From NCBI RefSeq assembly GCF_000332175.1, contig NZ_KB235914.1:1247966-1311965 (forward strand): a stretch of 64,000 nt of DNA. The letters are read 5' to 3'. This document shows, piece after piece, positions 16,142 to 19,846 of this stretch (within the stretch, counting starts at the first letter, position 1; every line of letters begins with the position of its first letter). The position numbers were made by a program, and so were the translations under genes. This DNA is from Pseudanabaena sp. PCC 6802. Lineage in GTDB: Bacteria > Cyanobacteriota > Cyanobacteriia > Pseudanabaenales > Pseudanabaenaceae. The notes beneath the pieces are model-generated. The model made no database searches, had not been told where the DNA came from, and saw only the letters and a program-made list of their open reading frames with translations.

Positions 16142-16900
16142 CTAAAAGTCAGGGAGTCGATCTGGATCGATGCCTTGCGATCGCAAGTAGTCCTCTAGGC
16201 GCTCCTTGGCCAACCGCTCTTGTTCTTTTGCCAAGCGTTCTTGCTCGGCTTGCTGTTGTGCTTGCTCTTTCGCCAGTCGTTCTTGCTCCTCGGGTAGTGG
16301 AATAAGTTCTCTTTCAGCGCTAAACCACCGCAACTGTCGCTCGTGAATGCCCAGGTATAGCCCTAACTGCTCGCTCCATAGCCATCCTGCCTCTGTGGGC
16401 GCGATCTCCTGGTACTGACCGTTGACGAGGTGAAATCCCTGAAATTCCATTGTCTCTGGATGGAACCAGAAGTAGTTCGGCACTCGCCATACATCTTGAT
16501 ATAGTAGCTTCTTATCACCGCGATCGACCTTTGCAGTTTTGCTAGAAAGCAGCTCGATGACCACATTGGGATATCTGCCTCCTTCTTCCCAAACTGCCCA
16601 ACTGCGGCGGCTCTTTTTTTCCGTGCCCAGCACTACGAAAATATCGGGACCGCGAAACTTCCGTTTTTTAATCTGCTGTTCGTCGTAATAGACAGTCAGA
16701 TTACCCGAAATATAAAAATCTGGGCGATCGCGCCACCAATGTTTCAGTAGCCGAATTAACAGCTCGATCTGTTCGCGGTGAAAATCAGTTTCCAAGGGTG
16801 GCTCATCACTATATAAGTTAGTTGGAGGCAGATTAATTTCGTTGGCAACATCCTCTACTTCCCCGCTCATGAGTGGTGGATTAACATCAAGACGAACCAT
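16142..16900 (-). CDS. Uma2-family (DUF820) putative endonuclease with coiled-coil tail
   Basis: A 252-residue member of the PD-(D/E)XK Uma2 family. The core shows RGPDIFVVLGTE, with the PD pair, then PNVVIELLSSKTAKVDRGDKKLLYQDVWRVPNYFWF, giving the E...K part of the active site. The last 55 residues form a highly charged coiled coil made of EQERLAKEQ repeats, a common add-on in cyanobacterial members. It lies immediately upstream of the VanX-like gene. Confidence 0.88.
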   Translation of the reverse strand: MVRLDVNPPLMSGEVEDVANEINLPPTNLYSDEPPLETDFHREQIELLIRLLKHWWRDRPDFYISGNLTVYYDEQQIKKRKFRGPDIFVVLGTEKKSRRSWAVWEEGGRYPNVVIELLSSKTAKVDRGDKKLLYQDVWRVPNYFWFHPETMEFQGFHLVNGQYQEIAPTEAGWLWSEQLGLYLGIHERQLRWFSAERELIPLPEEQERLAKEQAQQQAEQERLAKEQERLAKERLEDYLRSQGIDPDRLPDF

Positions 16901-18670: not shown

Positions 18671-18746
18671 TTTTTATTGTTTCGATCCCACACTATTAAA
18701 CACTATTAAATACTAAACCTTTGCCCAACCCCTGTAAGATCTAGTC

Positions 18747-19307
18747 ATGGCAGGTGCAGAAGAATATAAAATAAGAATCAAAGGATATCAGTGGAGCGAT
18801 CTTCTGGAGCTATGGCATCAGATTCTGTCACGCAAAACGCCTGACTGGGATACAGGCAAAGCATTAGAGTATTTTATACTAAGGGCATTTGAGTTAGAAG
18901 GAGCAGAAGTAGTATATCCCTACAGCATTTATCAAGGTGGCGAGCAGATCGAGCAAATAGATGGTGTAATCTATATTAGCGGACTTGCGTGTATAGTTGA
19001 ATGTAAGGACTACGCTCCAAGCGCTCCAATAAGTATTGAGCCAATTGCAAAGCTCCGCAACCAGATCCTACGCAGACCAACAGGAGTAATGGGCAGTATA
19101 TTTAGTACAAGTGGATTTACCGATTCAGCTATTACCCTTGCCCAGTTCATGCTGCCACAAGCTATTTTGTTATGGGAAGGAGACGATATCAACTATGCTG
19201 TTCAGAGCAAATTGCTGTGTCAGTCCTTTCTCCAGAAATATCGCTATTGTATAGAGTATGGGGTTCCTTATTATGGCATTTCTAGAGGAGGTATAGATCT
19301 CAAATGA
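18747..19307 (+). CDS. PD-(D/E)XK nuclease-like protein (Mrr-like)
   Basis: A 186-residue protein. The core pattern is EYFILRAFELEGAEVVYPY, then EQIDGVIYISGLACIVECKDY, which gives D...E-x-K with a hydrophobic strand, the active site of Mrr-like restriction endonucleases. Then LRNQILRRPTGVMGSIFSTSGFT resembles the helix and strand following it in that family. It overlaps the next gene by four bases (ATGA), so the pair is one translational unit. Its job is probably DNA cleavage in a defence context; this is inferred from the fold and partner only. Confidence 0.8.
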   Translation: MAGAEEYKIRIKGYQWSDLLELWHQILSRKTPDWDTGKALEYFILRAFELEGAEVVYPYSIYQGGEQIEQIDGVIYISGLACIVECKDYAPSAPISIEPIAKLRNQILRRPTGVMGSIFSTSGFTDSAITLAQFMLPQAILLWEGDDINYAVQSKLLCQSFLQKYRYCIEYGVPYYGISRGGIDLK

Positions 19308-19846
19308 ATGCATATATAGTTACTGAAGGGCAATCGGATGTTGATATACTGCGAAAGCTCCTACCTGAGGAAATCGCACAGCAGGTTAGTATCATTGGAA
19401 GAAATGGCAGGTCAAGTGCGATTTCAACCGCAGCAGGCATTATGATAGACAAACGCAAACCAGTAGCTTTGGTTCTTGATTCAGATACAGAGGATCAGAG
19501 AAATATCAACGCTCAGCTCAGTACTTTAAACTATCTACTCCGTCAAGCTTTAGCAGGTAATACATTCAAAGTAATTCTTGCAATTCCTGAAATAGAGACT
19601 ATCTTCGCCCAAGATCGCTCCCTGCTGTCAAAGATTGTAGGTAAGCAAGTAGAAGAAATGGAATGGGAATATGCTAAAAGTCAGCCCAAGAAGTATTTCA
19701 AGAAGCTGTTAAGCGACTCTCCACAATGGTTGTATGAGATTTTAAATAAGCTTACCGAGGAGGATATACAAATTCTCCAGCAACATGAACTTCTCGTCAG
19801 TCTTTCTCAATTTTTAACAGAATCTTGTATGGCTGCAACTATTTGA
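19304..19846 (+). CDS. TOPRIM-like protein coupled to the Mrr-like nuclease
   Basis: A 180-residue protein that begins MNAYIVTEGQSDVDILRKLL, the E-G-x-S-D glutamate motif of TOPRIM domains, and has PVALVLDSDTEDQRN (D-x-D) at about residue 62. AIPEIETIFA follows, where OLD-type nucleases carry another acid. There is no ATPase domain, so this is a standalone TOPRIM protein of the kind seen beside nucleases and OLD-like systems. It may be a nuclease or a nucleotidyl-transfer partner of the upstream gene. The next gene, menH, follows after one base. Confidence 0.75.
   Translation: MNAYIVTEGQSDVDILRKLLPEEIAQQVSIIGRNGRSSAISTAAGIMIDKRKPVALVLDSDTEDQRNINAQLSTLNYLLRQALAGNTFKVILAIPEIETIFAQDRSLLSKIVGKQVEEMEWEYAKSQPKKYFKKLLSDSPQWLYEILNKLTEEDIQILQQHELLVSLSQFLTESCMAATI

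Follow-up and report, generated by a model that had tools for sequence, protein, structure and literature searches.

An Mrr-type nuclease gene (gene A) and an overlapping gene for a stand-alone TOPRIM protein (gene B) in Pseudanabaena sp. PCC 6802 form a pair that recurs in distant genomes and decays from one side, A being disrupted or lost where B is still intact. We interpret the pair, with moderate confidence, as a small, horizontally moving module in which A would be a nuclease harmful to its own cell and B its restraint.

The window, that is, the whole 64,000-nucleotide stretch of DNA analysed, comes from a 5.6-Mb genome that is the sole representative of its genus in our genome set. Gene A (18747..19307, forward strand) encodes a 186-aa Mrr_cat PD-(D/E)XK nuclease with active-site residues E41, D72 and E85-x-K87, and gene B (19304..19846, forward strand) encodes a 180-aa stand-alone OLD/GajA-type TOPRIM protein in which E8, D12, D59, D61 and E98 are intact. 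The A stop and the B start share an ATGA overlap (19304..19307, forward strand), which is also found in several relatives (for example, L018-L021 and L017) and likely couples translation of the two genes; an ATPase domain is absent from both proteins. A divergent protein kinase gene lies 5' of the pair, a menH-like hydrolase open reading frame starts 1 bp after B and no recombinase gene adjoins. The initial annotation had described an Mrr-like nuclease and a stand-alone TOPRIM protein joined by ATGA, free of an ATPase and placed between a kinase gene and menH, and the reading frames, the Pfam match of A (PF04471), the B model and the flanks bear this out. The pair is AT-rich, with 41.0% G+C against a mean of 47.0% (sd 3.7; 38th lowest of 629 windows of 1.1 kb). 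The 76-bp divergent intergenic region 5' of A (18671..18746, forward strand) contains a tandem ACACTATTAA repeat at 18698-18718, a possible candidate operator, and promoter, terminator and Rfam scans returned nothing above chance at the pair. A putative Uma2-family endonuclease gene (PF05685, 1e-24) lies two genes upstream on the opposite strand (window positions 16142-16900).

Gene A matches Mrr_cat (PF04471) with 28.0 bits, above the Pfam gathering score of 21, and the same domain is matched by 28 of 29 A homologues at E<=0.01. Residues E41, D72, E85 and K87 are invariant in all 55 intact copies, and membership of the Mrr family suggests that A cuts DNA. Pfam recognises no winged-helix, ATPase, helicase or separate DNA-reading domain in A, and a sequence search of the PDB with A gave no match. 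Of the two folds proposed in the initial annotation, structure prediction recovered the TOPRIM fold of B, with OLD and GajA as best matches (pLDDT 77.9); the model of A reached pLDDT 48 and was built from a two-sequence alignment only. Distant proteins of ~300-330 aa (G185, G117, G276, G335, L029 and others) carry an A-like nuclease domain at the C terminus, joined to a different N-terminal part, and have no B match.

Pfam finds no meaningful match in window B alone. At the family level, B matches DUF3226 weakly in 19/44 members and OLD-like_TOPRIM (PF20469) weakly in 16/44. Among defence models, HEC-01B is best (6e-6 for window B, up to 19/44 members), with weak and partial matches, followed by a weak, partial match of AbiLii to 3/44 members and weak matches to GajA and AriB, the latter by a single B member. 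The predicted structure (pLDDT 77.9, pTM 0.74) consists of TOPRIM plus C-terminal helices only; its best PDB match is the C-terminal region of Class 2 OLD (6nk8; Z 12.2 over 165 residues, rmsd 3.5), and it matches GajA with Z 9.7, against <=8.5 for unrelated Rossmann-like entries. By its model, B is a TOPRIM fold; a PDB search with its sequence gave one match, at chance level. In the Burkholderia OLD nuclease, E400, D455 and D457 bind one magnesium ion, and E404, T506 and E508 serve the other (PMC6755086). Motif order and spacing suggest that E8, D59 and D61 of B correspond to E400, D455 and D457, and from motif order D12 and E98 probably correspond to E404 and E508.

We used both A and B as queries on the same 388 genomes of the cyanobacterial class and 192 genomes of one family. 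A is present in 42/388 and B in 38/388 class genomes (~10%), and B occurs in 51/192 family genomes, about one-quarter. Every intact A of this protein family lies directly upstream of a B in these 388 and 192 genomes, and A and B distances are correlated (r = 0.91; none of 1,000 permutations as high), B evolving faster than A (mean identity 43% versus 60%). Because of this linkage and co-divergence, the pairing is not a matter of chance. Outside cyanobacterial chromosomes, the pair is found in a Methylobacter bin, on two Leptolyngbya plasmids and on a conjugative Rhizobium plasmid. The Methylobacter A is 52-55% identical to window A, as near as most cyanobacterial copies, and the pair has therefore moved between phyla. 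Searches of phages and viral contigs found no relatives of the pair. In the Methylobacter bin (L017, 7087-10776), the pair lies within a core sulfate-assimilation operon, where it separates cysD from cysN but leaves both genes unbroken.

Occupancy varies from site to site. The initial annotation had proposed a check for variable occupancy and had named universal conservation in relatives at the site of the window pair as an observation that would count against a defence system. Such conservation is not seen: a menH homologue is present and the pair absent in about 24 relatives from the family; because the menH flank is not syntenic in these relatives, this demonstrates absence rather than an exact empty site. 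Clean empty sites occur elsewhere. In one genus, the pair lies between MnmC-like and rhodanese genes in G182 and G188, and the same site is cleanly empty in G349, G251 and G229, the gap measuring 1.2 kb with the pair and 0.14 kb in G349. In another genus, the gap between ParA and DUF6713 genes is a small hotspot (L161/L163/L165/L019/L023-L025): the pair is intact in G023 and G029, reduced to B with a deleted A in G032 and present with an insertion-split A in G017, and the same gap is empty in G031, holds an AbiTii gene in G024 and holds a PIN toxin gene preceded by a small ORF and accompanied by a possible nuclease in G015. Neighbours of the pair elsewhere vary freely, and a few are MazF, PIN, HsdM, AAA_15 or GIY-YIG genes. 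The patchy distribution, the empty sites and the unrelated genes on either side led us to reject a core-gene reading. In L105, L108 and L109 (G188, G349 and G182), the gene directly downstream of the pair, on the same strand, is a type I restriction HsdM gene.

Decay of the pair is one-sided. Each locus was classed according to whether the reading frames of A and B stay open across the full profile, and broken ones were checked by reading the DNA, which corrected the class of L120, where the catalytic core is lost in frame, and of the second copy in L095; L113 and L126 were left out as contig-end artefacts. After correction there are ~53 intact pairs, 29 loci with a broken or missing A and an intact B, and 10 loci with both genes decayed. 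The 388 and 192 genomes yielded no clear case of an intact A with a broken B, and any stray intact A would have come to light, since each genome was queried with both proteins. Two loci had been placed in that class automatically. One, in G365, is a contig end; the other is the Rhizobium pair, in which A is intact and B is 131 aa long, lacking the last helices with no remnant downstream, and this B is possibly a short form or a true exception to the one-sided decay. The lesions in A are diverse, comprising nonsense changes (G167, G146, G143 and G519), frameshifts (G543, G457 and Leptolyngbya copies), IS insertions (G017, and G252 with a transposase reading frame), internal deletions (G032, G240 and G479) and 5' truncations (G053, G200, G395 and G549). 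In L024/L025 the insertion is real, with inverted ends on both sides of the A break; assembly errors may account for some of the frameshifts. The breaks in three A genes fall at nearly the same position, but a programmed frameshift was rejected because the kinds of lesion differ and most copies are intact.

On a B tree of 82 sequences (IQ-TREE), the broken-A state requires 24 changes, at least 19 of them forced by well-supported branches, and the asymmetry is significant whether taken as a 29:1 split (p ~6e-8) or as 19:1 (p ~4e-5). The broken-A lineages are scattered at the tips, with no old orphan-B clade, and it follows that A is lost first and B later. Orphan B genes have dN/dS of 0.14-0.34, overlapping the 0.17-0.27 of paired B, and because the losses are so recent these values do not demonstrate selection on orphan B.

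The catalytic residues of the two proteins also differ in their conservation. The E-DxD triad of B is complete in 36/53 loci with an intact A, the window included, and incomplete in 17/53, through about ten changes on the tree, among them N or R at D59 or D61 and D or V at E8; the contrast with the invariant A site is significant (Fisher p ~1e-6). From the one-sided decay and these residues together, B is probably not an obligatory second nuclease, and those B proteins with full metal ligands, including window B, may still bind nucleic acid or cut. The initial annotation's picture of two coupled nucleic-acid-type active sites is thus half sustained: the genes are tightly coupled, but the sites do not appear to work jointly, given an A site kept in 55/55 copies, a B triad incomplete in 17/53 and at least 19 losses of A alone.

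In the mechanism we propose, A would be the effector, a metal-dependent Mrr-type DNase harmful to its own cell if unrestrained, and B, made from the same mRNA by way of the ATGA overlap, would use its OLD-derived TOPRIM fold to bind A or the substrate of A and hold A off. A would then be released by a trigger, whether foreign DNA, interference by a phage or the loss of B itself. Under such an arrangement, A would be dispensable at any time and B only after A. We infer both the self-harm of A and its neutralisation through binding by B. If B acts as a brake, its TOPRIM metal site is expected to be optional, as seen; if B were a toxin, cells should not survive without A, yet loss of A is seen. 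From its genomic context, the pay-off may be phage or plasmid defence, or addiction; that one site holds AbiTii or PIN genes in place of the pair, and that plasmids carry it, favours a conflict role of some kind. More tentatively, and with some doubt, the pair may represent an OLD-derived TOPRIM that has turned from a nuclease into an inhibitory or licensing subunit of an Mrr DNase, becoming a dead TOPRIM pseudo-enzyme in some lineages, within a two-gene cassette moving through cyanobacteria and proteobacteria.

Alternatively, A and B could form one two-nuclease restriction complex in which both sites cut invading DNA, following a Gabija- or PARIS-like logic with the Mrr nuclease in place of the ATPase. 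The complete E-DxD triad of most B proteins, window B among them, the proximity of the B fold to active OLD and GajA nuclease domains, and the linkage and co-divergence of A and B are all in keeping with such a complex, as is the requirement of PARIS for both of its components (PMC9122126). We nevertheless consider it rather unlikely. If both proteins were needed and neither were harmful alone, lesions should strike both, yet 29 loci have lost A and at most one has lost B, and changes to the B triad recur beside an intact A site. The invariant A site, the incomplete B triads and the at least 19 losses of A alone fit B as a restraint better than two cooperating nucleases.

The excess of A lesions does not by itself argue for restraint, as it is predicted both by loss of the costlier gene first and by loss of a restrained toxin first; only the missing class of intact A with broken B separates the two. 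A could be an effector that is costly and the first to go, and B a protein useful in itself, acting for instance as a decoy or as an anti-addiction factor against A on incoming elements rather than as a direct antidote in cis. Orphan B does have low dN/dS, in the range of paired B, and Leptolyngbya NIES-3755 holds several broken-A copies beside an intact pair. However, orphan-B lineages are tips only, so that any lasting selection to keep B once A is gone looks weak, and loci in which both genes have decayed are common (10); we judge this explanation quite improbable. A housekeeping DNA-repair pair of cyanobacteria would suit the chromosomal place beside menH in the window, where no recombinase adjoins, but it is hardly credible for a pair that is carried by ~10% of genomes, occupies unrelated sites, is also plasmid-borne, extends to other phyla, is missing from some of its sites and often decays.

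TOPRIM proteins of bacterial defence (OLD, GajA, AriB and retron effectors) are the cutting part of their systems and are usually governed by an ATPase, and OLD, Gabija and PARIS all require one. As the pair has no ATPase, it is a member of none of these three. Almost all of B shares its predicted fold with Class 2 OLD (Z 12.2) and GajA (Z 9.7), but B has no fused ABC/AAA ATPase domain and no helicase partner, is paired with an Mrr protein and does not always keep its metal ligands. PARIS (AriA ATPase plus AriB DUF4435/TOPRIM) likewise combines two genes, one of them for a stand-alone OLD-like TOPRIM protein, but there the partner is the AriA ATPase instead of an Mrr_cat nuclease. In PARIS, deleting either gene causes no toxicity, and the system depends on its TOPRIM residues (PMC9122126), whereas the present pair decays one-sidedly and the B TOPRIM residues are dispensable in some lineages. 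Of the defence models, the PADLOC candidate HEC-01B and AbiLii match the B sequence best, but these matches are weak and partial, the partner gene differs and the window pair includes no ATPase gene. A shares Mrr_cat and the E/D/ExK residues with Mrr type IV restriction endonucleases, and differs from them in its size of 186 aa, the lack of a recognised DNA-reading domain and an obligate TOPRIM partner.

The initial annotation knew of no named system with exactly this pair, and our search of the open-access literature (subscription papers and preprints lying outside it) likewise uncovered no account of an Mrr nuclease partnered by a lone OLD-type TOPRIM protein, and nothing on HEC-01, MAD4 or DUF3226. 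In a survey of BREX, OLD-ABC ATPases are reported together with TOPRIM or PD-(D/E)XK nucleases as partners, and the term 'Mrr' is absent from its text (PMC12839542). In the present pair, the TOPRIM protein has no ATPase, is paired with another nuclease, seems to outlive that partner and has a metal site that is dispensable in several lineages. If the antidote reading is true, it would place the TOPRIM fold in use as a brake, offer a small effector open to direct toxicity assays, and add to defence-gene searches in cyanobacteria an unlisted module, which about one-tenth of the sampled genomes carry.

Type II toxin-antitoxin systems resemble the pair in their short overlapping genes, patchy, mobile and plasmid-borne distribution, and loss of the effector before its partner, and the pair shares sites with MazF, PIN and AbiTii genes; the difference is that the effector would be an Mrr DNase and its partner a TOPRIM fold. 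In L201 and L217 (G549 and G418), a PIN-domain gene stands immediately 5' of an intact B, having taken the place of all or most of A. In L220 (G518, 2080-2800), a MazF/PemK-like gene runs straight into an A lacking its first third, an arrangement that resembles the product of recombination between two toxin-type genes.
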